Of a stretch of DNA of 19,202 bases, positions 2,700 through 19,202 are shown one piece after another (within the stretch, counting starts at the first letter, position 1; each line of letters opens with the position of its first letter). The stretch covers positions 1 to 19,202 of the forward strand of contig JAISAX010000482.1 in the NCBI GenBank assembly GCA_031266495.1, read 5' to 3'. Below the pieces are notes generated by a model. That model did no database searches and was not told the origin of the DNA. It saw nothing but the letters and a program-made list of their open reading frames with translations. Source of the stretch: Opitutaceae bacterium. Lineage in GTDB: Bacteria > Verrucomicrobiota > Verrucomicrobiae > Opitutales > Opitutaceae. The translations under genes were made by a program, and so were the position numbers.

Positions 2700-3398
2700 A
2701 TGGAAACTACTACACGACATTTCCTTCCGTCCGCTGTCCGGCGCTCCGGGTTCACGCTTGTCGAGCTGCTCGCGGTTGTAGCGATAATCGGGATACTTGC
2801 GGCGATTATCATTCCCGCTGTCGGATCGGTCCGCCGGTCCGCCCGGGCCATCCAGTGCAAAAGCAACATGCGCCAGATCGGCATGGCCATCCTCCAGTAT
2901 GCCGACGAGAACCGCGGCCTCTCGCCGAGGGCGGGCGGCCAGAACAATCCCAATCCCGACTATCCCGGGGAACCGGACGAGAAAATCAGCTGGTTGCAGC
3001 TCATCCAGAAACGCCTGTCCCTGCGTTTCCCGACCGCCGGCATTGACAACCTGTTTCTCTGTCCCGACGCGAGGGCGGCGTTCACGGTGCCGCCGCGCCG
3101 CACCTATGCCCTCAACACGGCCGGAGGCAACGCCGACACTCCAATCGCCCTCTTCCAGCTTTCCGCCTCCTCGCAGTCGATCCTTCTCGTCGAGGCCGCG
3201 CAGAATGGCGCGGGAGGCGACAGTTATGACGCCGTCGGTGCCGGCGCGGTCACGAATGGCAATCTCGACTGGCGACACAAAGGCGAGACCATGAACGTGG
3301 TCTTTGCAGACGGCAGCGTGCGCACGCTCAAGAGCGGTACCCTGACCGACGGCACACCGTCCTCCTTCGAAACCCTGCTCCGCAACATCCGGAAGTAG
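2700..3398 (+). CDS. Prepilin-type (DUF1559-like) pseudopilin
   Basis: The 232-residue protein has the type IV prepilin signal RRSGFTLVELL. A short basic leader is cleaved after the Gly by prepilin peptidase, and the Phe+1 and Glu+5 residues are present. A membrane helix follows (VVAIIGILAAIIIPAV), then SARAIQCKSNMRQIGMAILQYADEN. The C-terminal part WRHKGETMNVVFADGSVRTL has the H...N..F.DG pattern of the planctomycete/verrucomicrobial pilin-like proteins. It is a close paralog of the protein at 15398-16087; the last 42 residues differ at one position. Such proteins accompany carbohydrate gene clusters in these phyla, but their job (pseudopilus, surface structure or secretion) is not established. 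The start lies just after a repeat and lacks a Shine-Dalgarno sequence. Confidence 0.9.
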   Translation: METTTRHFLPSAVRRSGFTLVELLAVVAIIGILAAIIIPAVGSVRRSARAIQCKSNMRQIGMAILQYADENRGLSPRAGGQNNPNPDYPGEPDEKISWLQLIQKRLSLRFPTAGIDNLFLCPDARAAFTVPPRRTYALNTAGGNADTPIALFQLSASSQSILLVEAAQNGAGGDSYDAVGAGAVTNGNLDWRHKGETMNVVFADGSVRTLKSGTLTDGTPSSFETLLRNIRK

Positions 3399-8701: not shown

Positions 8702-9577
8702 TCACGGGACTTTGCGAGCGGCGATGTGCCAGTCGAAAAAGAGGACGTTGCGGTAGTTGCCGTGAACGGGTTTTTGAGGGATGTCGTCTATCGATGCATC
8801 GGCCCCGTGGTTGACGCGATCAATGTCGGTCAAGGCTCCGGTTTGTGAATAGGTGTTATAGAGGGAGATGAATTGATAGGTGCGGGGAGGTTGCGGGTCG
8901 GGCGAACCTTCGGGTGGCGTGGGGCCGTACCCCCACGGCGAGGCGGTGGCGCCGTGTTCATCGACTTTGACTTCATTCATGAGGGACCAGATGGAGATGC
9001 CCCGATTGGTGAGGAGGTTCCGGGCGTTGCGCCGGTATCCGAGGCAGAGGAGGTCATCGGGGACAATGGCGCCTGGTTGCAGTCCGATGTAGGGAGCGAG
9101 ATACGTGTAGAGGTGCCATTGGTTTTGCGCACGACTGACGCCGCCCATGCAGCGTCCGGGGAGTTTGCCTTTGTTGTCGTCGATGAACAACTGGATGGCC
9201 ATGCCGTTGCCGCGAAGGACGGACTTGCATTGCGCGGCGGCGGCGGCAGAGCGGACTTTGCCAACAACAGGAATGATGATGGCGGCGAGAATGCCGATGA
9301 TGGCAATGACGGTGAGCAGTTCGATCAGCGTGAAGGCGCGGGAGGCGCGGCTGATTTTCGATTCTGGATTCTCGATTTTCGATTGGGCGCTGCCGCGCCA
9401 TTGGATTACGGATACACTGGCCTGGTCGTTCGGAAATCGAGAATCGGGAATCGAAAATCGAAAATCCTTCATGCGTTCGATCAGCGTGAAGCCGCCGCGC
9501 CGTGGGAAACGCGGCGGGACGGGACGCGGCGGGAAGAGCGGGAGGAGCGGAAGGGGCCGGGAAGCTCGGGTATTCAT
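8702..9577 (-). CDS. Prepilin-type pseudopilin with an in-frame insertion in its leader
   Basis: The 291-residue frame contains two prepilin motifs. The first, RRGGFTLIE (about residues 26-34), is followed by RMKDFRFSIPD and not by a membrane helix. The second, RASRAFTLIELL, is followed by a proper helix (TVIAIIGILAAIIIPVV) and by QCKSVLRGNGMAIQLFIDDN, so it is the functional one. The 52 residues between the two Phe residues come from a palindromic heptad repeat flanked by 17-bp direct repeats. A second ATG at 9472 lies inside the insertion and could begin a shorter 256-residue protein with a leader of about 46 residues. The C-terminus YRNVLFFDWHIAARKVP is the family's usual end. First gene of the minus-strand operon; unlike the pseudopilins at 2700 and 15398 in its C-terminal half. 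Confidence 0.85.
   Translation of the reverse strand: MNTRASRPLPLLPLFPPRPVPPRFPRRGGFTLIERMKDFRFSIPDSRFPNDQASVSVIQWRGSAQSKIENPESKISRASRAFTLIELLTVIAIIGILAAIIIPVVGKVRSAAAAAQCKSVLRGNGMAIQLFIDDNKGKLPGRCMGGVSRAQNQWHLYTYLAPYIGLQPGAIVPDDLLCLGYRRNARNLLTNRGISIWSLMNEVKVDEHGATASPWGYGPTPPEGSPDPQPPRTYQFISLYNTYSQTGALTDIDRVNHGADASIDDIPQKPVHGNYRNVLFFDWHIAARKVP
9319..9491. mobile_element. Palindromic heptad element (AATCGAA type) inserted in a pseudopilin gene
   Basis: The 17-bp sequence GTTCGATCAGCGTGAAG occurs at 9319-9335 and 9475-9491, 156 bases apart. Inside lie two arms of 7-base units: on the plus strand AATCGAG, AATCGGG, AATCGAA, AATCGAA, AATCC at 9435-9467, and the inverted set at 9353-9384. A core of about 50 bases separates them and includes a GGCGC-TGCC-GCGCC hairpin. 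The flanking repeats look like a target duplication, but recombination between two pilin genes at the conserved FTLIE codons would give the same picture. Confidence 0.7.
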
Positions 9578-9669
9578 CAGGGATTTGCAGGTGATCGCAC
9601 CGAAAACCAGCGATTATCCCGCAGGCTGACAACTTTCGCATAACTCACACAGTAAAGTAGCGGCACGAT

Positions 9670-9681
9670 GTTTCCGGAAAC
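9670..9681. promoter_or_regulatory. GTTTCCGGAAAC perfect palindrome, putative LacI-family operator
   Basis: A 12-bp perfect palindrome with the central CG step typical of LacI-family operators lies 93 bases upstream of the minus-strand operon and near the second LacI gene. A close relative (GTTTCCGGAACC) is at 2145-2156 beside the first LacI gene. Confidence 0.45.
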
Positions 9682-9698
9682 CAGGCAGGATCCGGTTC

Positions 9699-9856
9699 GT
9701 GAAATAACTGATGTTACGCGGTACCCTTCGCAGGGGCTTCGCTTGCGAAGCCCGCGAGGACCTGACGCAACGGGAGATTCGCCAATTCTCTCCGCCTGGC
9801 GCGGGCGTCGCAAGCGACGCCCCTACCTTCGGCGGGCGTAACATCAGTGAAATAAC
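9699..9856. mobile_element. Small MITE-like element with TGATGTTACGC terminal repeats
   Basis: TGATGTTACGC (9709-9719) and its reverse complement GCGTAACATCA (9836-9846) bound 138 bases. The same 10 bases GTGAAATAAC stand directly outside both ends (9699-9708, 9847-9856), consistent with a target duplication. Inside are two perfect hairpins, GGGCTTCG-CTTG-CGAAGCCC and GGGCGTCG-CAAG-CGACGCCC style. No coding capacity, so it would have to be mobilised in trans. Confidence 0.65.
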
Positions 9857-10027
9857 AATACTATGGATACGCATGACGCGCGCGACGCCGGCAAGGGGAC
9901 GGTCGGCAAGGGACGGACGCCGCGCCAATGGACGCGACCGGAGCCGGAGCCGGGATGTACACATATGCAGAAGATGGCGGCATTTTTGGGCTTGTTGGCA
10001 ATTTCATCATTACTCACAGAATAAAGT

Positions 10028-11152
10028 ATGGGCGCGAAAGAAACCTCCGGTGCTGGAAAAACAGGTTCAGGGAAACGGGTGACGCAGCAGGATATCGCGG
10101 ACAGGGTGGGGGTGAGCCGTTCGGCGGTGTCGATGGCATTCAGGAATCATCAGGGGATTTCCGCGGCGATGCGGGAACGTATCCAAAAGGAAGCTACCGG
10201 AATGGGTTACGCGCCGGACCCGATGCTGGCGTCGCTGGCGGCGTATCGCAACCGGCAGAGGCCGGCGAGTTTTCACGGGACGCTGGCGTGGCTGGTGAAC
10301 ACTACGAGCGACTTCCAATGGGACACGGTCGGGCAGTTCACCGAGGTTTTTGAAGGCGCGCGGGACTCGGCGGCGCGGCATGGGTTTACAATGGAGGTTT
10401 TCGATGTGGCGCGCGACGGGGCGCCGCGTCTGGCCCGGGCGGGGGCGGTGTTGCGGGCGCGTAATGTGGCGGGCATCCTGGTGGCGCCCCAACCGGCGCC
10501 GGATACATCACTGGAGGAGTTCCCGTGGGCGGATTTTTCCGCCGTGGCGTCGGGTTACACGCTGGCCAGGCCAAGGCTGCATGTGGTGGCCGCAGCCCAG
10601 TTCAGCGCAGTGCTGGAGTGCTTGCGGCAGTTGCGCGAGACGGGGCACAGGCGGATCGGTTTCTGGTTGAGTCCCATGCACCTGAAACGCACGCGGCTCC
10701 AGTATCTGGGAGCGTGGCTGGCAAGTCAGGAGGTGGCCGGGCTTGGCGGGCAGGTGCTGGCGGTGCTGAGGGAAAAGGAGTTCAACCCGGGGGTGCTCGA
10801 CAGGTGGCTCCGGCGTTACAGGCCGGACGGGATCATCAGCAGCAGTTACATGCCGGACCGGTTGCGCGAGCTTGGCTGGCGGGTGCCGGAGGATGTGAGC
10901 GTGGTGTGTCCACATTTGCCGAATGGCGAGAGTCCGGTTTCGGGTGTGTGCGAGGCGCCGCGTGATTGCGGCTCCGCCGCGGCGGATTTGCTGGTGTCAC
11001 TCATCCACCGGGGCGAGCGCGGGATGCCGAGGGTGCCGCGGACGGTATTGGTGGACGGGTGCTGGGTGGAGGGGAAAACGCTGCGAGCGCGGTCGCTGCT
11101 CACGGAAGTTCGCGTTGCAGGAAAAACCGGAAAACCGGATACGGGATCCTGA
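10028..11152 (+). CDS. LacI-family transcriptional regulator
   Basis: The 374-residue protein carries an N-terminal HTH after about 16 Gly/Lys-rich residues (VTQQDIADRVGVSRSAVSMA, then FRNHQGISAAMRERIQKEA, then TGMGYAPDPML). A LacI-type effector domain follows, with VAAAQFSAVLECLRQLRETG and HRRIGFWLS, and the C-terminal pattern RTVLVDGCWVEG. It is a distant paralog of the regulator at 1020-2048. It is followed on the same strand, after 259 bases containing a hairpin and an operator-like palindrome, by the PEP-CTERM and beta-helix genes it probably controls; the divergent heparinase operon is a second candidate target. The ATG is preceded by AATAAAGT and no Shine-Dalgarno sequence. Confidence 0.93.
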   Translation: MGAKETSGAGKTGSGKRVTQQDIADRVGVSRSAVSMAFRNHQGISAAMRERIQKEATGMGYAPDPMLASLAAYRNRQRPASFHGTLAWLVNTTSDFQWDTVGQFTEVFEGARDSAARHGFTMEVFDVARDGAPRLARAGAVLRARNVAGILVAPQPAPDTSLEEFPWADFSAVASGYTLARPRLHVVAAAQFSAVLECLRQLRETGHRRIGFWLSPMHLKRTRLQYLGAWLASQEVAGLGGQVLAVLREKEFNPGVLDRWLRRYRPDGIISSSYMPDRLRELGWRVPEDVSVVCPHLPNGESPVSGVCEAPRDCGSAAADLLVSLIHRGERGMPRVPRTVLVDGCWVEGKTLRARSLLTEVRVAGKTGKPDTGS

Positions 11153-11221
11153 AAATGGTGGAGAGATGCCCGCCTGCGGAGCCGCGGTGCTGTTGACCTG
11201 CCGCCGTCGCCGGACGCACAA

Positions 11222-11245
11222 CGACCCACTGCGGATCGTGGGTCG
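11222..11245 (+). terminator. Stem-loop downstream of LacI gene, possible weak terminator
   Basis: CGACCCAC and GTGGGTCG form a perfect 8-bp stem around an 8-base loop, 70 bases after the LacI stop. No T-run follows, so intrinsic termination is doubtful; it could also be a regulatory or mobile-element hairpin. The rest of the 11153-11411 gap shows only the leader block. Confidence 0.3.
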
Positions 11246-11278
11246 ATGTTCGAGATCGTCGGGCATGGTCTGGCAACA

Positions 11279-11305
11279 GATTACAGAAAAACGGTTTTAC
11301 GTGGA
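11279..11305. promoter_or_regulatory. Conserved leader block with AAAACGGTTTT palindrome (putative LacI operator)
   Basis: The palindrome AAAAC-G-GTTTT (11288-11298) lies within ATTACAGAAAAACGGTTTTA followed by GTGGAAAGCGA. It aligns without gaps to the block at 2069-2096 in front of the paralogous PEP-CTERM gene. Conservation of this block amid diverged surroundings points to a shared regulatory site. Confidence 0.5.
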
Positions 11306-11411
11306 AAGCGACAACGGCGTTGCCGCGTTTGTCAACCGGGAGCAACGTCTGTCGAGTTCTTCGATCCCCGTTCTTCCGAAGCCTCCACAACACCGCAATC
11401 GTCTCCGTATC

Positions 11412-12227
11412 ATGAAAAATATCCGCCTATACCTACACTTCCCGCGCGTTCTTCCGGCCCTCGCCGCCACCGCGGTTTTGCTCGCCGCGAATCTCGCCGC
11501 CAGCCTCCCCGCGCAAGCCGCGGACGCCGGCACAGGCACGGTCACTGTTGTATCCACAACAGCACGACCCGATGCCAACATCATCGCGTCCTACACGCCT
11601 TCGGCCGTCAATGGCCTGGATTGGCGCGCCAATACGTCTGCATCGAGCGAAGCCTGGCGTGACGTCGGCCAGTCGTTCACTGCCACGCAAAACGTCACGT
11701 TCGACGCCGTTTCTTTCTTTGTCTCGTCGGGCCTCAACACCCCGGCCAACTACACCAACGCCGCCATCACACTCACCATTTACAGTTTCGCCGCCGATTT
11801 CTCGTCCGCCTCCGCGACGAAGCTTGCCACCCTTCAAGGTTTCACTCCGGCCTCTGTCGCCAAAAGCGATTACCTGACGTTCGACGTGCGTAACGCGGGC
11901 CTTCAGTTGCAAGCCGGCATTGTTTACGGCGTACTGCTCCACTTTGACGCGATGGCCGACAACCGCCACATCACGCTCTCGGTTCAGAACGCCACCGGAC
12001 AGGAAATCGCCTACTCCGGGGGCAGGCATCTCAAAGTTCTCAACGACAAGGATACCGGCACTCCCGGCTCGCTGACCTCCAGCGGTTCGGCCCTCGAATT
12101 TTACGTCCAGGGCACGCCCCTCGGGACTCCCGGCATCCCCGAACCCGCCACCATCGCCGCCTTGTTCGGGATCGTCGCACTCGCATCCGGATTCCGGCGT
12201 CTCCGTATCCGCAATCTCCGCACATGA
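11412..12227 (+). CDS. PEP-CTERM surface protein (intact paralog)
   Basis: The 271-residue protein starts with MKNIRLYLHFPRVLPALAAT and continues to a cleavage site near AQAADAG. The mature domain is a beta-sandwich-like region with ANIIASYTP, EAWRDVGQSFTATQNVTFD, ITLTIYSFAADFS and LEFYVQGTPLG, resembling the choice-of-anchor domains common in PEP-CTERM proteins. The C-terminus has IPEPATIAALFGIVALASGF followed by RRLRIR: PEP motif, hydrophobic helix and basic end, as recognised by exosortase. The start at 11412 is chosen because the leader CGTCTCCGTATCATG is identical to that of the paralog at 2224; the longer frame from 10923 runs through the LacI gene. Its stop overlaps the next start (ATGA), coupling it to the beta-helix protein. 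Binding function unknown; glycan binding is a guess from context. Confidence 0.92.
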   Translation: MKNIRLYLHFPRVLPALAATAVLLAANLAASLPAQAADAGTGTVTVVSTTARPDANIIASYTPSAVNGLDWRANTSASSEAWRDVGQSFTATQNVTFDAVSFFVSSGLNTPANYTNAAITLTIYSFAADFSSASATKLATLQGFTPASVAKSDYLTFDVRNAGLQLQAGIVYGVLLHFDAMADNRHITLSVQNATGQEIAYSGGRHLKVLNDKDTGTPGSLTSSGSALEFYVQGTPLGTPGIPEPATIAALFGIVALASGFRRLRIRNLRT

Positions 12228-13963
12228 TCCGCCCGCTCGCCGCCCTCCTTCTCGTGTTCGCGTCCGGAACCGCCTCTGTCCTCGCCCGCCTGGCCGAGCC
12301 GTCCGCGCCCTCCGCGCCCGACCTCCAGGCGCTGATCGACGGCGCTGCGGCGCGCGGCGAATCACGGGTGGTTTTCCCGCCCGGCGAACACCGGCTGGCC
12401 TCCGCGCTTCAGTTGCGCAACCTCTCCAACCTCGTCATCGACGGCAACAGCGCCCGCCTCGTCTTCACCAGCCTGAAGGACGGCGGTATCGCTATCTCCG
12501 ATACGAACGCTCTCGTCCTGCGCGGCCTTACCATCGATTTCGATCCGCTGCCGTTCACGCAGGGCGTCATTGAAGCCATCGACACCGCCGCCGGCACGCT
12601 CACCTGGGCCGTGCACGACGGGTATCCCGACCTCTCGCCGGTTTACCTCAGCCATCGCGCCCACGCCTTCGACGCCACCACCCGCGAATGGAAACGCGAC
12701 GCGCCCGATATCTACGCCTCCTCCGCCCGCGCCCTCACCCCGCGCCGCGGACAACTTTCGTTTTCGCCCGACCGGCGCTGGCAGCTCGAAACCCTCGCCG
12801 CCGGCGATTGCCTCGTGCAGGACGTCCGCCGCGAACGCGGCATCCGTATCGACCGCAGCCGCGACATCACGCTCGAACACATCACGATCCACAGCGCGCC
12901 CGGCCTCGCCATGACCCTGCGCTTCATGGACGGCCAAAACCGCTTCAGCCACCTCACCATCACGCCCGGCCCTCTCCCCGCCCGCGCCACCGAACCCCGC
13001 CTCCTCTCCACCTCTGCCGACGGTTTCAACTACGCCTACGCCCGCACCGGCCCCGTCCTCGAACACTGCGACTTTTCCCGCATGGGCGACGACTCCGTCA
13101 ACCTCCACGGCATCGCCTTCGTTGTTGCCGAAGCCGATCCGGCCACCCGCACCATCAACCTCATCCGTCCCTACGGACCCGAGGGTTTTCCGTCCGTCGT
13201 TCGTCCGGGCGACGAAGTCCATGCGCTGGCCCAGGGCAACTTCGACTTCACCGGCACCGCCCGCGTCGTCCGTTTCGACATCGATCCTGCGCCCGACGCG
13301 CATTTCCGCGCACTCGCCGAACGCATGTTCCCGCACGTCGGTGCCATCCGGAAATTTACCGTGTATCGACTCACACACGACGCTCCGCTTTCTCTCGCCA
13401 CCGGCGATTTTGTAGAAATCCCCGCCATCGCCGCGCCCGGCTACACGATCCGCCAGAACCGCTTCAGCCAGCACCGGGGCCGCGCCCTGCGCCTCATGAG
13501 TCCCCGCGGGCTTGTCGAGGACAACGTCATCGACGGCATCAAGCAGGCCGCGATCACGCTCGGCCCCGAATTCGTCGGCTTTCGCGAAGCCGGCTGGGTG
13601 TGCGACGTCACTGTCCGCCGCAACACCATAAAAAACTCCGCCTTCGACCCCGTCCTCCTTCGCGGCGCCGCCTGGACGCCCGGCGCTCTCTCCGTGATCT
13701 GGCGCGGCGAAACCCCCGACGCTCCCCGTCCTGTCGCCGCCCGCCACCGCAGCCTCCGTATCGAGCAAAACACCATCAAGAATGTCGGCGGACCCGCCAT
13801 CCATATCAACCAGGCGGAAAACGTCCTGATAAAAAACAATCGCGTCACCCGCGCCAACCAGGCGCCTGCCGTCGGCGCGAAGAACAAAAATCCCTGGGGC
13901 CTCGCCACCGCCGACCCCATCGAGGTGGACCATTCCGAAAACGTCACCATCGAAACCGACTGA
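12224..13963 (+). CDS. Secreted right-handed parallel beta-helix protein, GH110-like candidate
   Basis: The 579-residue protein has a signal peptide (MIRPLAALLLVFASGTASVLA). Successive beta-helix coils follow: LSNLVIDGNSARLVF, ALVLRGLTIDF, DITLEHITIHSAPGLAM, and late coils YTIRQNRFSQHRGRAL, CDVTVRRNTIKN, LRIEQNTIKNVGG and NVLIKNNRVTR. The segment CDFSRMGDDSVNLHGIAFVV, with two adjacent Asp, resembles the active-site region I recall for family GH110 alpha-1,3-galactosidases, so an exo-acting glycosidase on galactose-containing glycans is possible. This is recognition from memory and needs a profile search. Translationally coupled to the upstream PEP-CTERM gene. It ends naturally, just before a poly-C/heptad repeat. 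Confidence 0.85.
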   Translation: MIRPLAALLLVFASGTASVLARLAEPSAPSAPDLQALIDGAAARGESRVVFPPGEHRLASALQLRNLSNLVIDGNSARLVFTSLKDGGIAISDTNALVLRGLTIDFDPLPFTQGVIEAIDTAAGTLTWAVHDGYPDLSPVYLSHRAHAFDATTREWKRDAPDIYASSARALTPRRGQLSFSPDRRWQLETLAAGDCLVQDVRRERGIRIDRSRDITLEHITIHSAPGLAMTLRFMDGQNRFSHLTITPGPLPARATEPRLLSTSADGFNYAYARTGPVLEHCDFSRMGDDSVNLHGIAFVVAEADPATRTINLIRPYGPEGFPSVVRPGDEVHALAQGNFDFTGTARVVRFDIDPAPDAHFRALAERMFPHVGAIRKFTVYRLTHDAPLSLATGDFVEIPAIAAPGYTIRQNRFSQHRGRALRLMSPRGLVEDNVIDGIKQAAITLGPEFVGFREAGWVCDVTVRRNTIKNSAFDPVLLRGAAWTPGALSVIWRGETPDAPRPVAARHRSLRIEQNTIKNVGGPAIHINQAENVLIKNNRVTRANQAPAVGAKNKNPWGLATADPIEVDHSENVTIETD

Positions 13964-13967
13964 TCCT

Positions 13968-14110
13968 CCCCCCCCCCCCCCGCTGACGCGGGGAAATTAA
14001 GAATTAAGAATTAAAAAAACGAACCTGCGCACGCGAAGTACTCATGATCTGCCCAATTCAACCCGACGGCGAAGCCGTCCTTTCTTGATTCTTAATTTCC
14101 CTCCCCCCCC
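13968..14110. repeat. Poly-C plus palindromic heptad element (AATTAAG type), full copy
   Basis: Order of parts: 14 C's (13968-13981) leading into the hairpin CCCCGC-TGAC-GCGGGG, then AATTAAG, AATTAAG, AATTAAA (13995-14015). Next comes a core beginning AAAAAAACGAACCTGCGCAC and ending in the hairpin GACGGC-GAA-GCCGTC. The inverted arm CTTGATTCTTAATTTCC follows, and finally a second run of 8 C's. The core matches the copy at 15226-15387 closely. It fills the gap between the two beta-helix genes. Confidence 0.8.
14065..14086 (+). terminator. Rho-independent-like terminator within the heptad element
   Basis: The 6-bp GC-rich stem GACGGC/GCCGTC with a GAA triloop is followed by CTTTCTT. It lies about 100 bases after the beta-helix stop. 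It may end part of the transcription before the second beta-helix gene. Confidence 0.5.
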
Positions 14111-14138
14111 GGCTCCGGCCTTGTTCTTCTGTTTTTCC

Positions 14139-15272
14139 ATGTATCCACGTTTCCATTTTGTTTCCCTGTTCGTCCTGAACACGCTCGGCGTTCTGTCTGC
14201 GGGCAGTCCGCTTTGCGCCGCCGTTACCGCCCGCATCGCCGAAGACGCGCCCGCGCCCGCGCCCGCCGCCGCCGGACGCTGGCTCCGTGTCGATCCGCGC
14301 GACCCCGCCGCCTTCCCCACGCTCGCCGCCGCCGCCGCCGCGGTGCGCCCCGGCGACACCCTCTGGCTCGCACCCGGCAGCGGACCGTATCGGGAAGAAC
14401 TCTACATCGTAAAATCCGGAACCTCCGACGCGCCCATCACCATTGAAGGCAACGGCAACGAGATCACCGGCTTCGATCCGGTCATTTTCTCATCGCAGCG
14501 TAGTGCTACGGTCACGACAGAGTATCCCTTCGTTCTCCGCCACCGTGGCGTCCGCATTCCCGAGGACGCCGCGACCGGACGCTTCGCGGCCCCGTCTGCC
14601 GCTTCCGCCATCACGTGGGATGCCGCGACAAAAACCCTCGCGCTCGGCCCGGAGGCCGATCCCGGAGGCTGGGAAATCTCGACGCGTTATTTTGTCGTCC
14701 GCATTCAGGGCGTCTCGCATCACCGGTACCGCAACCTCGTTGCCAGCGGCGCACGCAACGACGGCTTCAACCTGCACGGACGTGGCTCCGATCTGCTCTT
14801 CGAGAACATCACCGGTTGCCACAATCTCGACGAAGGATTTTCCGCGCACGACGACATTTTGTCCGAAATCCGCGAAGGCCGTTTTTTCGGCAACGACAAC
14901 GGTGTGTACAACATCCAGCGTTCGCACACTCGTGTCCGCGACCTCCTGATCTGGGAAAACCTCGGCATCGGGCTGTGCCAGCGCGAGGCCACGCTTGAGG
15001 GCGAAAACATCCGCATCTGGGGCAACGGCATGGTGCAGCTTGCGACCGAAAAATCCGGCGTCATCCGCGTGAGCAATCTCGTCGTCCATCGCAATCCGCA
15101 CGCCACCCGTCCCTGGCGCACGTACATGGAATCCGCCAAATCAACCGCCGCTCCCGCCACGTTCGGCGGCGAGGCCCGGCGACAGCAATCCACCGCCGTC
15201 ACTGGTCTTGTGGAAAACCCCGCGGCCTCCCCGCTGGCGCGGGGAAATCAAGAAGCAAGAGTTAAGAATTAA
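14139..15272 (+). CDS. Secreted right-handed parallel beta-helix protein, C-terminus supplied by a repeat
   Basis: The start at 14139 (MYPRFHFVSLFVLNTLGVLS) gives a good signal peptide and 377 residues; the frame from 14085 lies in the repeat. The N-terminal domain has the usual opening of polysaccharide-lyase-like helices (FPTLAAAAAAVRPGDTLWL, then APGSGPYREELYI, then SGTSDAPITIEGNGNEI). Coils such as YRNLVASGARNDGFNLHG, SDLLFENITGCHNLDEGFSA and VRDLLIWENLGIGLC follow. Asp, His and Asn residues line the predicted cleft, but I cannot assign a catalytic family. The last residues, SPLARGNQEARVKN, are encoded by the heptad repeat in the same frame as in the truncated protein at 2224. A full helix usually has more coils and a cap, so loss of the C-terminus is likely, though not certain. 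Confidence 0.8.
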   Translation: MYPRFHFVSLFVLNTLGVLSAGSPLCAAVTARIAEDAPAPAPAAAGRWLRVDPRDPAAFPTLAAAAAAVRPGDTLWLAPGSGPYREELYIVKSGTSDAPITIEGNGNEITGFDPVIFSSQRSATVTTEYPFVLRHRGVRIPEDAATGRFAAPSAASAITWDAATKTLALGPEADPGGWEISTRYFVVRIQGVSHHRYRNLVASGARNDGFNLHGRGSDLLFENITGCHNLDEGFSAHDDILSEIREGRFFGNDNGVYNIQRSHTRVRDLLIWENLGIGLCQREATLEGENIRIWGNGMVQLATEKSGVIRVSNLVVHRNPHATRPWRTYMESAKSTAAPATFGGEARRQQSTAVTGLVENPAASPLARGNQEARVKN

Positions 15273-15387
15273 GAATCAAAAAAAACGAACCTGCGCACAC
15301 GAATCACTCACGGCCTGCGCAACGCAACCCGACGGCGAAGCCGCCTTTTTTAACTCTTGATTCTTAATTCGTCTCCCCCCCCCCCCC
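15226..15387. repeat. Poly-C plus palindromic heptad element (AATTAAG type), full copy
   Basis: A CCCCGC-TGGC-GCGGGG hairpin precedes units AATCAAG, AAGCAAG, AGTTAAG, AATTAAG, AATCAAA (15246-15280). The core AAAAAAAACGAACCTGCGCA and onward matches the copy at 13968. The inverted arm is at 15350-15369 and 13 C's follow at 15375-15387. The left poly-C is only 4 long here. The element overlaps the 3' end of the beta-helix frame, and its C tract ends 10 bases before the pseudopilin start. Confidence 0.8.
15331..15351 (+). terminator. Rho-independent-like terminator within the heptad element
   Basis: The stem CGGC-GAA-GCCG, extended by one more G-C pair past a mismatch, is followed by six T's. 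It lies 60 bases after the beta-helix stop and 47 before the pseudopilin start, so it could separate the two genes transcriptionally. Confidence 0.5.
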
Positions 15388-15397
15388 GCACACTGCC

Positions 15398-16087
15398 ATG
15401 AAAACGAATATCCATCATTCTCTGCCACGCATTGCCCGCTGCTCCGGGTTCACGCTTGTCGAGCTGCTCACGGTTGTAGCGATAATCGGGATACTTGCGG
15501 CGATTATCATTCCCACGGTCGGTTCCGTCCGTCGCTCCGCCCGTGCCATCCAGTGCAAATCCAACATGCGCCAGCTCGGCATGGCCGTCCTCCAGTATGC
15601 CGACGAGAACCGCGGCCTCGCGCCGATTTCTCAAAACCCCAATCCCGACTACCCCAAAGAAAGCTCCCAGACCATCAGTTGGTGGCAACTCATCCAGAAA
15701 CGGCTGACCCTGCGTTTCCCGATCGCCGGCATCGATAACCTGTTTCTCTGTCCCGACGCGAGGGCGACATTTACGGTGGCACCGCGTCGCACCTATGCGC
15801 TCAATCTGGCCGGAGGCGACGACACCGATCCGGTCACCTTTTCCCGGCTCTCCGCCCCTTCGCAGTCGATTCTTCTCGTCGAGGCCAAACAGAACGGCAC
15901 GGAAGGCGACAGTTTCAGCGTTGTCGGCGTCGGCTCGATCACGCGCGGCGAGTTCGACTGGCGTCACAAGGGCGAGACCATGAACGTGGTCTTTGCCGAT
16001 GGCAGCGTGCGTACGCTCAAAAGCGATACCCTGACCGACGGCACGCCGTCCTCCTTCGAAACCCTGCTCCGCAACATCCGGAAGTAG
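15398..16087 (+). CDS. Prepilin-type (DUF1559-like) pseudopilin
   Basis: The 229-residue protein has a short basic leader, then CSGFTLVELLTVVAIIGILA with Gly-1, Phe+1 and Glu+5, a membrane helix, and SARAIQCKSNMRQLGMAVLQ. It is the close paralog of the protein at 2700-3398. Most differences lie in the leader and in two loops (after NRGLAP and around LAGGDDTDP). The region from WRHKGETMNVVFADGSV to the end differs at one residue. Nucleotide identity ends sharply at the stop codon, where a GC-rich inverted repeat begins here and a different terminal repeat begins in the other copy. Last gene of the right carbohydrate cassette; needs a prepilin peptidase encoded elsewhere. Confidence 0.9.
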   Translation: MKTNIHHSLPRIARCSGFTLVELLTVVAIIGILAAIIIPTVGSVRRSARAIQCKSNMRQLGMAVLQYADENRGLAPISQNPNPDYPKESSQTISWWQLIQKRLTLRFPIAGIDNLFLCPDARATFTVAPRRTYALNLAGGDDTDPVTFSRLSAPSQSILLVEAKQNGTEGDSFSVVGVGSITRGEFDWRHKGETMNVVFADGSVRTLKSDTLTDGTPSSFETLLRNIRK

Positions 16088-16094
16088 CCGGAAG

Positions 16095-16214
16095 CGGGAG
16101 CGGCGGTCTCCAGACTGCTGCGACGACGCGAAGCGTCGCCGGTTGGAGTGGTGCAGAGGCAAGGGGCGAGGCGCTTCGCGCCTCGTCGCAGCGGCAGGAA
16201 TGCCGCCGCTCCCG
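16095..16214. mobile_element. GC-rich inverted-repeat element (GAGCGGCGGCATTC family)
   Basis: Arms of 32 bases (16095-16126 and 16183-16214) start and end with CGGGAGCGGCGG/CCGCCGCTCCCG and are complementary apart from mismatches in their middle. Inside are the hairpins GACGC-GAA-GCGTC and CGAGGCGC-TTC-GCGCCTCG. Related copies are at 17274-17403 and, partly, 19126-19202. No coding content; a non-autonomous or REP-like repeat. Confidence 0.75.
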
Positions 16215-16229
16215 CCGCGCCCGATCGTG

Positions 16230-16261
16230 CATTCCCGTTCATTTTCATTCCCGTTCATTTT
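16230..16261. repeat. 16-bp tandem duplication upstream of argF
   Basis: CATTCCCGTTCATTTT occurs twice, back to back, about 50 bases before the argF start. It may be a simple duplication or a paired regulator site; it does not look like a standard ARG box. Confidence 0.6.
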
Positions 16262-16309
16262 ACTCTCGTCGGTGGCTTGCGAACGCCTTACGCATGATCG
16301 CTTCCTTTT

Positions 16310-17272
16310 ATGAAGCACTTCCTCAAAGAGACGGATTTCTCGCCACGCGAAGTGGCCGAAATCTTCGCGCTGGCCCGGGACCTCAAACAGAAACGCGGCA
16401 CCGCCGCCTCTCCGGACATCCTCCGGTACCAGACGTGGGCGCTCATTTTTTCCAAATCCTCCACCCGCACGCGTGTCTCCTTCGAGGTCGGCATTCATGA
16501 GCTGGGCGGCAATCCGCTCTTTCTCAACAAGAACGACATTCAGCTCGGCCGTGGCGAATCCGTCGAGGATACCGCGCGCGTGCTCTCGCGTTTCGTCCAC
16601 GGCCTGATCGTGCGCACTTTCGACCATTCCGAAGTCGAGCGCCTCACCGCCGCCGGCTCCATTCCGGTGATCAACGCCCTCACGGATTTTCTCCATCCCT
16701 GCCAGATCTACACCGACGCCTTCACGCTGGCCGAACGCTGGGCCGCGCCCGGCGGCGACCTCTTCGCCTCGCTCCGGGGCCGCAAGATCGCCTTCCTCGG
16801 CGACACCGCCTGCAACATGGCCAATTCGTGGATTCTCGGCGCCAACCTCTTCGGCATGGAAATCGCGCTCGCCGGACCGCAGGGTTTTGCGCCTTCCGCC
16901 GACTTCAACGCCCTGCTCGCGAAGGAGGATTTCGGCGACGGCTGCGGTCCCGGCAGCGGACGTTATCACTTCACGCACGATCCTTACGAAGCCGTGAAGG
17001 GCGCCGATGTCGTTTACACGGACGTGTGGGTGAGCATGGGCAAGGAAGACGAGGCGAAGGAACGCATCGCGCAGATGAGCCCGTACAGCGTGGATGCGAA
17101 ACTTTTTGCCGCCGCCAAACCCGATGCCTGGTTCATGCACTGCCTGCCCGCCTACGTCGGCAAGGAAGTGACGCAGGAGGTTCTCGATAACCCGCGCTCG
17201 ATCATCTTCGACCAGGCCGAAAATCGTCTGCACACGCAAAAAGCCATCATGGCCACGCTCGCCCGCAGGTGA
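16310..17272 (+). CDS. argF: Ornithine carbamoyltransferase
   Basis: This enzyme transfers the carbamoyl group of carbamoyl phosphate to ornithine, giving citrulline in cytoplasmic arginine synthesis. The 320-residue protein has all family signatures: carbamoyl-phosphate loop SKSSTRTR (residues 48-55), HPCQ (129-132), the ornithine-side DVWVSMGKE (about 237-245) and the catalytic-Cys segment MHCLPA (about 275-280). Length is normal and no residues of these motifs are missing. The anabolic enzyme is the likely role, since no arginine deiminase genes are near; no other arg gene is in the window. It is a single gene flanked on both sides by GC-rich inverted-repeat elements, the second starting 2 bases after its stop. 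No Shine-Dalgarno sequence is visible (CTTCCTTTT before the ATG). Confidence 0.97.
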
Positions 17273-17273
17273 A

Positions 17274-17403
17274 GGAGCGGCGGCATTCTTGCCGCTGCTG
17301 ACGACGCGAAGCGTCTCCGGACCGAAGAGATCCGCAGCGCAAACCGATGGGGAGAGGCGATGCGCGATGCGCCTCGTCGCAGCGGCAAGAATGCCGCCGC
17401 TCC
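17274..17403. mobile_element. GC-rich inverted-repeat element with perfect 25-bp arms
   Basis: Bases 17274-17298 and 17379-17403 are perfect reverse complements (GGAGCGGCGGCATTCTTGCC and five more bases). The interior holds GACGC-GAA-GCGTC and an imperfect GAGGCG...GCGCCTC hairpin. It belongs to the same family as 16095-16214. The 130-base element nearly fills the gap between argF and the trpB leader and, once transcribed, would form a strong hairpin that could end argF transcription. Confidence 0.8.
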
Positions 17404-17489
17404 TTCACCCGATCCCCGATTTCCGGTTTTTCTTTCGTGTCTTTTCGTGCGTTCCGTGGGCACTCTCCTTTCTTCTTCCCTCGCACACC

Positions 17490-18740
<1,251 letters not shown>

Positions 18741-18758
18741 TCAGCAAAAGGCAAGGAG

Positions 18759-18796
18759 CGGCGGCGTCCCCGCCGCCGGACGGGACAACAGTCCCG
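18759..18796 (+). terminator. Two stem-loops after trpB
   Basis: CGGCGGCG-TCCC-CGCCGCCG (18759-18778) and CGGGAC-AACA-GTCCCG (18781-18796) are perfect adjacent hairpins 18 bases after the stop. No T-run follows, so they may slow or end transcription only weakly, or belong to a repeat element. Confidence 0.4.
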
Positions 18797-18832
18797 CCAA
18801 TCGAATTCTGTAACTGATGTTACACGCTTGCG

Positions 18833-18951
18833 ACGTGGCACGGGCATCTTGCCCGTGGACGGCGCTCCGCGCCGCAAGCGTCCCGACCCGGCAAGCGTCC
18901 CCCTCCTTTCCCCCCCCCCGGCAATCATGGACCAGGATGCCCATGCCACGT
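18833..18951. repeat. Inverted repeat with ACGTGGCACGGGCATC arms and nested hairpins
   Basis: Arms at 18833-18848 and 18936-18951 are complementary with one mismatch. Nested inside are CACGGGC-ATCTT-GCCCGTG, GGCGC-TCC-GCGCC, a direct repeat of GCAAGCGTCCC and a run of ten C's (18910-18919). Just before it, TAACTGATGTTAC (18811-18823) is an end of the terminal-repeat family seen at 9709. Confidence 0.6.
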
Positions 18952-18962
18952 GACGCTTCGCT

Positions 18963-19054
18963 AATGAAGAATGACGAATGAAGAATGCAGAATGAGGTGC
19001 AGGAGCTTCGGTTTCCGCAGGGATCGGCCCATTCTTCATTCTCCATTCTTCATT
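18963..19054. repeat. Palindromic heptad element (AATGAAG type)
   Basis: Left arm units AATGAAG, AATGACG, AATGAAG, AATGCAG, AATGAGG (18963-18997) face a right arm at 19031-19054. Read on the other strand, the right arm is AATGAAG, AATGGAG, AATGAAG, AAT. The core between is 33 bases. The layout is the same as in the AATTAAG and AATCGAA elements, with a different unit sequence. Confidence 0.75.
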
Positions 19055-19125: not shown

Positions 19126-19202
19126 GGGAGCCGGAGCGGCCGGAGCGGCGGCATTCCTGCCTCTGCGGCGAGGCGCAACGCGCCTCGCCCCTTGCCCCTC
19201 CG
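19126..19202. repeat. GC-rich inverted-repeat element, cut by the window end
   Basis: GGAGCGGCGGCATTCCTGCC matches the arm of the 16095 and 17274 elements, followed by a perfect 10-bp hairpin GGCGAGGCGC-AAC-GCGCCTCGCC (19167-19189). The right arm would lie beyond the window. Confidence 0.6.

Follow-up and report, generated by a model that had tools for sequence, protein, structure and literature searches.

Tandem heptanucleotide repeats, inverted pairs of such repeats and stems that swap their sequence are reported separately in Xanthomonas, Nostoc and Geobacter, and each of these systems, in the parts of the reports available to us, covers one feature. Here they are compared with palindromic elements whose arms consist of 7-bp units, located in a 19,202-bp stretch of DNA (the window) from an Opitutaceae bacterium (contig JAISAX010000482.1 of assembly GCA_031266495.1). 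One element, of the AATCGAA type, lies within a prepilin-type gene. Three others, at positions 13968, 15226 and 18963, have arms of AATNAAG-kind units.

In Xanthomonas, GGGAATC heptamers are mostly intergenic, the majority with four units, and include 70 (Xcc) and 75 (Xac) convergent inverted pairs (PMC4692102). These inverted heptamer pairs resemble the window elements, and rotation of GGGAATC gives AATCGGG, which is among the units of the right arm at 9435 to 9466. The Xanthomonas repeats were studied as G-quadruplexes, however, and the available part of that source describes neither core families nor insertion at one coding motif. The P6b stem of the Nostoc trnL intron contains 7-nucleotide repeats of two classes, TDNGATT and NNTGAGT, with repeated class replacement at the same site; the reverse complement of TDNGATT, AATCNHA, is fitted by AATCGAA (PMC4476775). 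Unlike the dispersed Opitutaceae elements, the P6b repeats form, in the available text, a single locus within a group I intron. Geobacter metallireducens likewise carries tandem heptamers, some drawn as opposite-strand sites, but the units are others and are annotated, in the available part, as putative regulator sites or RNA elements (PMC2700814). The TAACTGA heptamers of Beggiatoaceae are also intergenic tandem repeats and occur in several phyla, but they are direct repeats, with one indirect repeat in the main genome (PMC4679880, available part). Rickettsia palindromic elements are palindromes of ~150 bp in frame in genes, like the AATCGAA element, but lie in unrelated genes rather than at one motif (PMC10969869, available part). 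Foldback and Galileo elements have terminal inverted repeats that contain tandem repeats, with several transposase binding sites; they differ from the Opitutaceae elements in being eukaryotic and longer and in that a transposase is known for Galileo (PMC3688188, available part). The original prediction regarded the inverted form as undescribed. In the literature searched, this holds for the Opitutaceae lineage but not in general, since inverted heptamer pairs are present in Xanthomonas and a heptamer stem in Nostoc trnL P6b. Among the matches listed from the open-licence full-text literature, no paper joined these features or described the prepilin insert.

The interpretation favored here, to which we assign a probability of roughly 55%, is that these are small non-autonomous palindromic elements (~90 to 160 bp), dispersed like miniature inverted-repeat transposable elements (MITEs) or foldback elements, with arms remodeled by slippage and arm-to-arm template switching, and that one family repeatedly enters the prepilin motif. 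A core would define each family, and the terminal inverted repeats would happen to be heptamer microsatellites. Copies would appear at new sites, as their presence or absence in relatives and the shared cores indicate. In place, replication slippage would lengthen or shorten the arms by whole 7-bp units, and a nascent strand that switches to the opposite hairpin arm would copy a change between arms, as unit-step indels and one mirrored change suggest. Under dispersal and remodeling combined, the unit could drift without loss of the period or the palindrome. The family whose main units are stop-free in any frame would have repeatedly entered the prepilin cleavage motif and duplicated it; the pilin-like host gene would stay in frame, and the insert would leave with the leader peptide. 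The elements share the build of MITEs, being short and noncoding, with terminal inverted repeats and many dispersed copies (38 plus 10 elements and the AATNAAG core copies). Head-to-tail heptamers with unit-step length change were found, as in short tandemly repeated repetitive (STRR) sequences or simple sequence repeats (SSRs), as were inverted repeats built from tandem repeats, as in Foldback, a likeness of build and not of kinship. The AATCGAA type is a palindrome in frame within coding sequence, as are Rickettsia palindromic elements, which are not known to have heptamer arms.

Period-7 arms were detected by local self-alignment and a hairpin screen (arm of at least 18, 84% complementary, loop of 10 to 200). 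All four window elements were recovered by both methods, with arm pairs at 9353-9384/9435-9466, 13991-14010/14082-14101, 15246-15268/15347-15369 and 18963-18987/19030-19054, the third in a slightly different register in one of the two. Four of the six hairpins in the window were 7-periodic, while 100 shuffles of the window (first-order Markov samples, like all shuffles used here) gave a mean of 0.12 and a maximum of 1 hairpin, none 7-periodic. Three elements, folded as single-stranded DNA, were more stable than their shuffles, with z scores of -3.6 (13990 to 14101), -4.3 (18963 to 19054) and -5.2 (9345 to 9470). In the window together with 80 loci from relatives (1.19 Mb), 77 hairpins were found versus 10 in one shuffle, and 7-periodic arms numbered 7 (4 of them the window's) versus 0. 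An Rfam search of the window revealed no match at the gathering threshold, and a plasmid collection queried with positions 13960 to 14120 gave none. The inverted 7-periodic arms that had been predicted are real, and the proposed comparison with shuffles of the same composition bears this out, since 7-periodic hairpins were absent from the window shuffles and from three Ereboglobus shuffles. The uniform orientation attributed to them did not hold. In the AATNAAG elements it is the left arm that reads AAT, whereas the element at 9319 reads AAT in its right arm. This last element was given as 9319 to 9491; the arms inside that interval were confirmed, but the interval takes in a 17-bp direct repeat (9319 to 9335 and 9475 to 9491). 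The features of the AATNAAG elements are as follows.

~2624 to 2700, no strand assigned: collapsed AATNAAG element with GC hairpin and left units but no core (third AATNAAG copy)
13978 to 13993, no strand assigned: GC-rich hairpin CCCCGCTGACGCGGGG, left edge of AATNAAG element 1 (in all four aligned copies)
13991 to 14010, no strand assigned: left arm of AATNAAG element 1, whose units start at 13995 (self-alignment, folding, hairpin screen)
14065 to 14079, no strand assigned: core hairpin GACGGCGAAGCCGTC, followed by T-rich sequence (sequence, folding, copy alignment)
14082 to 14101, no strand assigned: right arm of AATNAAG element 1 (self-alignment, folding, hairpin screen)
15226 to 15387, no strand assigned: AATNAAG element 2, core as in element 1, left arm of five units (copy alignment)
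18963 to 18987, no strand assigned: left arm of the AATGAAG element, which has a different core (self-alignment, folding, hairpin screen)
19030 to 19054, no strand assigned: right arm of the AATGAAG element (self-alignment, folding, hairpin screen)

The genomes used for comparison included Geminisphaera colitermitum TAV2 (G001), which shares 86% identity with the window in ornithine carbamoyltransferase, a TAV5-like genome (G012) syntenic with the window from 11.2 to 18.8 kb, Ereboglobus sp. PH5-10 (G004), an Ereboglobus metagenome-assembled genome (G003) and a further genome of the genus of PH5-10 (G009), 96% identical to it over a 7-kb probe. The elements at 13968 and 15226 have a core in common with a TAV5-like copy (locus L270) and a TAV2 copy (locus L105). 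TAV2 had 25 core matches and the TAV5-like genome 11; of these, 9 and 2, respectively, spanned 98 or more of the 126 query bases. The hairpin CCCCGCTGACGCGGGG is one base short in the TAV5-like copy, and its loop letters differ in two other copies. Left-arm units across the four core-sharing copies number 2, 2, 3 and 5; the alignment gaps of 15 and 22 in this arm miss a multiple of 7 by a single base and lie beside an A-run. The original prediction counted AATTAAG and AATGAAG as separate sequences. By sequence comparison, AATTAAG, AATGAAG and AATCAAG are variants of one kind, AATNAAG, and not separate inventions, because the TAV5-like copy with the shared core mixes AATGAAG, AATTAAG and AATTAAA units in its arms. 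The element at 18963 has units of this kind, and its core showed no similarity to those at 13968 and 15226 in the window self-comparison. The families are apparently defined by their cores, with units that drift. That the period is kept while the unit is replaced, which had been presented as a puzzle, becomes less strange because unit letters vary inside one core family. Element 2 overlaps the 3' end of the upstream open reading frame (ORF), which stops at 15272, and the partial element at 2624 and the one at 15226 provide their upstream ORFs with near-identical C termini (LTRGNQESRIKA, LARGNQEARVKN). An AATNAAG element, collapsed in the first case, closely precedes each of the prepilin-like paralogues at positions 2700 to 3398 and 15398 to 16087, which share ~84% DNA identity. 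Runs of 10 to 14 C adjoin or lie near the elements (~2626 to 2639, 13968 to 13981, 15375 to 15387 and 18910 to 18919) and are possible slippage or phase-variation tracts.

The same build was found with several unit types in PH5-10, in which 0.79 Mb contained 96 hairpins, 22 of them 7-periodic (arms of 18 to 43 bp, loops of 22 to 162), versus 10, 11 and 9 hairpins, none 7-periodic, in three shuffles. Tandem arrays in this sequence had period 7 (n = 51), 8 (n = 18) or 14 (n = 7), with other periods from 4 to 15 represented by at most three arrays each; one shuffle contained no tandem arrays. At a looser threshold, of 77 period-7 arrays, 50 were accompanied within 250 bp by an inverted copy and 12 by a direct one. 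Units in the inverted arms of this genome were AATCGAA, AGGAGTC, AATTAAG, AATGAAG/AATGAAT, GTAGCGA and AATTCCA-like. Period 7, which had been taken as the fixed feature, is the commonest but not the exclusive period, as eight hairpins had period-8 arms (GAAAGGCT- and GCGGAAGC-like) and eight had period-10 arms (ACACGGATTA-, ACGCGAATGG- and ACGCAGATGA-like). Hairpins with period-10 CACGGAT/CGCAGAT/CGCGAAT words and period-8 GGCTGAAA words occur, for example, at C1:252486-252564 and C1:34552-34708 of PH5-10; both periods come in several word types, paralleling the heptamers. Among 120 genomes of the family, four AATNNNN units followed by AAT were present in 87 (2,043 matches, which overlap, so that totals are not element counts) and a reversed control pattern in 39 (182 matches). 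Across the phylum, the AATNNNN pattern was present in 137 of 240 genomes, a number that is hard to read, as several genomes matched the reversed control about as often. Elements with AAT in the right arm numbered 38, mostly of the AATCGAA type, in collected loci partly chosen by searches for such units; 28 of the 38 had a loop of 43 to 48, the typical arm had four units, and the third left-arm unit was ATTCTCG.

Orthologous sites revealed gain or loss as well as remodeling. The elements at 13968 and 15226 are both missing from the syntenic TAV5-like sites; the TAV5-like alignment ends at window position 18776, short of the element at 18963. At 13968, C-runs flank the window element by eye, and the empty TAV5-like site is one short C-rich stretch. 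PH5-10 and G009 together gave 104 array clusters (61 plus 43, some sites being counted from both genomes), of which 46 had an orthologous interval (23 in a first round with less sequence); the rest were dropped. Eleven distinct orthologous hairpin sites divide, by our own reading, into 3 shared, 6 present in one genome only and 2 in which the gap holds different unit types in the two genomes. The last two were read by eye, one also by local alignment, and were not called arrays by the detector: AATCGAA versus GAGTGAA/GGGTGAA in the other genome at C2:15983 of PH5-10, and GTAGCGA versus an AGGAGTC-like array of PH5-10 at C1:2036085 of G009. Differences in presence between relatives, in line with the original prediction, were observed at the two TAV5-like sites and at 6 of 11 Ereboglobus sites. 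Shared sites differed by an exact 7-bp unit indel in one array and a 14-bp unit indel in one hairpin arm, and at C1:230515 of PH5-10 the identical change, CGAGAATCG to CGAGAATTC, is present in both arms. The unit indels and the mirrored change favor the slippage with hairpin priming that had been proposed. In yeast, template switching homogenizes the arms of inverted repeats, according to the available part of one report (PMC8604942).

The element of the prepilin-type gene comprises the following features.

8702 to 9577, minus strand: prepilin-type gene (PF07963) with the insert between two FTLIE motifs (family match, translation)
9319 to 9335, minus strand: left copy of the 17-bp direct repeat, codons of FTLIE in the prepilin cleavage motif (exact match to 9475 to 9491)
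9336 to 9474, no strand assigned: AATCGAA-type element, in frame (between direct repeats; continuous reading frame)
9353 to 9384, no strand assigned: left heptamer arm (GATTTTCGATT..., reverse complement of AATCGAA units) (self-alignment, hairpin screen)
9435 to 9466, no strand assigned: right heptamer arm, AATCGAG AATCGGG AATCGAA AATCGAA (self-alignment, hairpin screen)
9475 to 9491, minus strand: right copy of the 17-bp direct repeat (exact match to 9319 to 9335)

The translation of this gene contains FTLIE twice, and since the 17-bp repeats are spaced by 156 nucleotides, the element is in frame. A 12-mer was shared between such flanks at 255 of 20,000 random places, although the prepilin motif itself is not random DNA. 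Three protein searches supplied 129 proteins, chosen by likeness to inserted genes; P0121, a window translation, was set aside. Two FTLIE-like motifs 28 to 75 residues apart were present in 29 of the 129, and a translated AATCGAA-type insert between such motifs in 28, the window's own included, in a similarity-selected set that does not give a frequency. P0064, outside the 28, holds another repeat between its duplicated motifs, and P0022 carries two tandem copies of the AATCGAA-type insert. The motif regex misses P0123 and P0124, in which the insert is present behind a slightly different left motif, and several proteins without a full left motif (e.g., P0021, P0046 and P0047). The stretch shared at the duplicated motif is 17 bp in the window and six to eight residues in other proteins. 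P0128 carries the insert, and its TAV5 relative P0003 (58% identical) has one motif only. Among the first 22 insert proteins, the inserts had a median identity of 61%, compared with 31% in the bodies and 25% in the leaders. When 252 family genomes were searched at the protein level, 185 gave a match, and most listed matches covered the part after the second motif. An AATTCCA array lies in a pilin leader of PH5-10 and is missing from the shorter interval of G009. The leader of P0015 contains a repeat peptide resembling the P0064 insert, and that of P0065 an apparent TTGGATG-type heptamer array. Stop-free units were considered as a requirement for coding insertion, and AATCGAA, AATTCCA and GATGTTG are stop-free, yet so are 8,264 of 16,384 heptamers; because about half of all heptamers are stop-free, such units in pilin leaders prove nothing. 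Type IV pilins are processed by a prepilin peptidase, which cuts off the leader. By analogy, the insert should be removed with the leader peptide. A palindromic element specialized on the prepilin-peptidase motif, which enters the FTLIE codons of many pilin-like genes with a long target duplication, has units open in all frames and is removed with the leader, is proposed tentatively, with the odds somewhat against it.

Several observations weigh against mobile, remodeled elements. The motif that holds the 17-bp repeat is the most conserved one in pilins, and recombination between paralogues could for that reason mimic insertion. In the first 22 insert proteins, identity is 64% over the 25 residues that directly follow the motif, similar to the inserts, and 25% over the rest of the body; the insert is common to otherwise diverging genes and may have spread by recombination through the conserved motif region. 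A 7-periodic array lies upstream of the prepilin motif at 2 of 79 sites in the examined genomes, the window included, and a regex for the duplicated motif found none in the genome loci scanned. Possible target duplications are the 17 bp at 9319 and 9475 and, by eye, the C-runs on either side of the 13968 element; none of the Ereboglobus presence/absence sites (PH5-10 versus G009) has a clean one, and several resemble a replaced spacer. The 15226 site differs from the TAV5-like site by replacement, in which the spacer and the upstream gene end are also replaced. The mirrored change is clear at one of three shared hairpins (C1:230515), partial at C2:13740 (outer units) and absent at C1:474014. 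On the favorable side, arm pairs of the 38 elements with AAT in the right arm matched better than shuffled pairings, with agreement at variable positions in 526 of 588 cases (0.895) versus 0.843 (standard deviation, 0.010), a level reached by 0 of 1,000 shuffled sets, but kinship among the AATCGAA copies may inflate this value. The arms of ten AATGAAG-type elements did not match significantly better (0.653 versus 0.614, 108 of 1,000). No transposase or autonomous partner was identified among the Y1 and reverse transcriptase families, the only ones looked for. Without any mobility, slippage and template switching in rapidly evolving spacers could create microsatellite-armed palindromes de novo, with similar units reflecting mutational bias. 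The spacer-like replacement at Ereboglobus sites fits such an origin, and different unit types in the same gap of genomes 96% identical over the 7-kb probe and the coexistence of arrays of periods 7, 8 and 10 point the same way. This explanation is nevertheless unlikely, given that cores are shared across different places and genomes and that the same insert occurs at the same motif in 28 proteins with diverging bodies.

Selected binding arrays or RNA leaders, with heptamers as regulator sites and a hairpin active in the transcript, would account for the position of three window AATNAAG copies and the TAV5-like copy, which end, by eye, within ~40 bp before an ATG, and for the T-rich sequence after the core hairpin; the Geobacter heptamers carry such annotations in the available part of their report (PMC2700814). 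The TAV2 copy, however, has no ATG shortly after it, Rfam gave no match at the gathering threshold, and copies within genes, gain and loss between relatives, and units that differ between families fit poorly with this role, which we consider quite improbable.

Slightly less credible still, and very doubtful in our view, are REPIN-like elements, built from repetitive extragenic palindromic (REP) sequences and moved by hairpin-recognizing Y1 HUH transposases (REP-associated tyrosine transposases [RAYTs]). PF01797 is present in 107 of 120 family genomes and correlates weakly with pattern matches per Mb (Spearman 0.29, P = 0.001, uncorrected for kinship), and Opitutus terrae is described, in the available part of one source, as highly enriched in GTAG repeats (PMC3733652). 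Around 16 Y1 genes (locus L314 partly masked), however, hairpins were found in nine loci, and those nearest to the genes were other sequences. Heptamer elements occurred in two Y1 loci only, L312 and L313 of element-rich Ereboglobus, at a distance of 1.5 to 3.4 kb, one scan having covered L311 to L318 only. Arms and loops exceed REP size, and a constant GTAG/GGAG foot was not seen, though AGGAGTC and GTAGCGA units contain such letters. The combination typical of REPs and REPINs, a hairpin of 20 to 40 bp with a GTAG/CGTC-type tag and Y1 linkage, was thus not found. A reverse transcriptase or telomerase-like enzyme that writes 7-periodic arms from a short template, as the original prediction entertained, would explain a period fixed across units but is barely credible: PF00078 is present in 41 of 120 family genomes, median matches per Mb of 1.9 with and 0.8 without it do not differ significantly (P = 0.24), 18 genomes without it have at least 20 matches (G009 and the TAV5-like genome among them), and periods 8 and 10 also occur.

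Further repeats were noted in the window. A second palindromic repeat (GGCGGCATTCCTGCC..., containing a GCGAGGCGCAACGCGCCTCGC hairpin) is dispersed at positions 16094 to 16215, 17268 to 17409 and 19133 to 19199 and has many matches in the TAV5-like genome. Another hairpin, at 9732 to 9824, has 25-bp arms that are not 7-periodic, and positions 9799 to 9824 are identical to a TAV2 stretch.

Within one genome, a single build is shared by several unit types and by periods 8 and 10, and a common origin from mobile cores, slippage and arm-to-arm copying is testable in pairs of near-identical strains. If the prepilin insert is a true insertion, it would exemplify a mobile element for which protein processing undoes the damage, with a host processing enzyme making insertion harmless much as splicing does for introns. 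The insert could then diversify the large pilin-like gene families of Opitutaceae.

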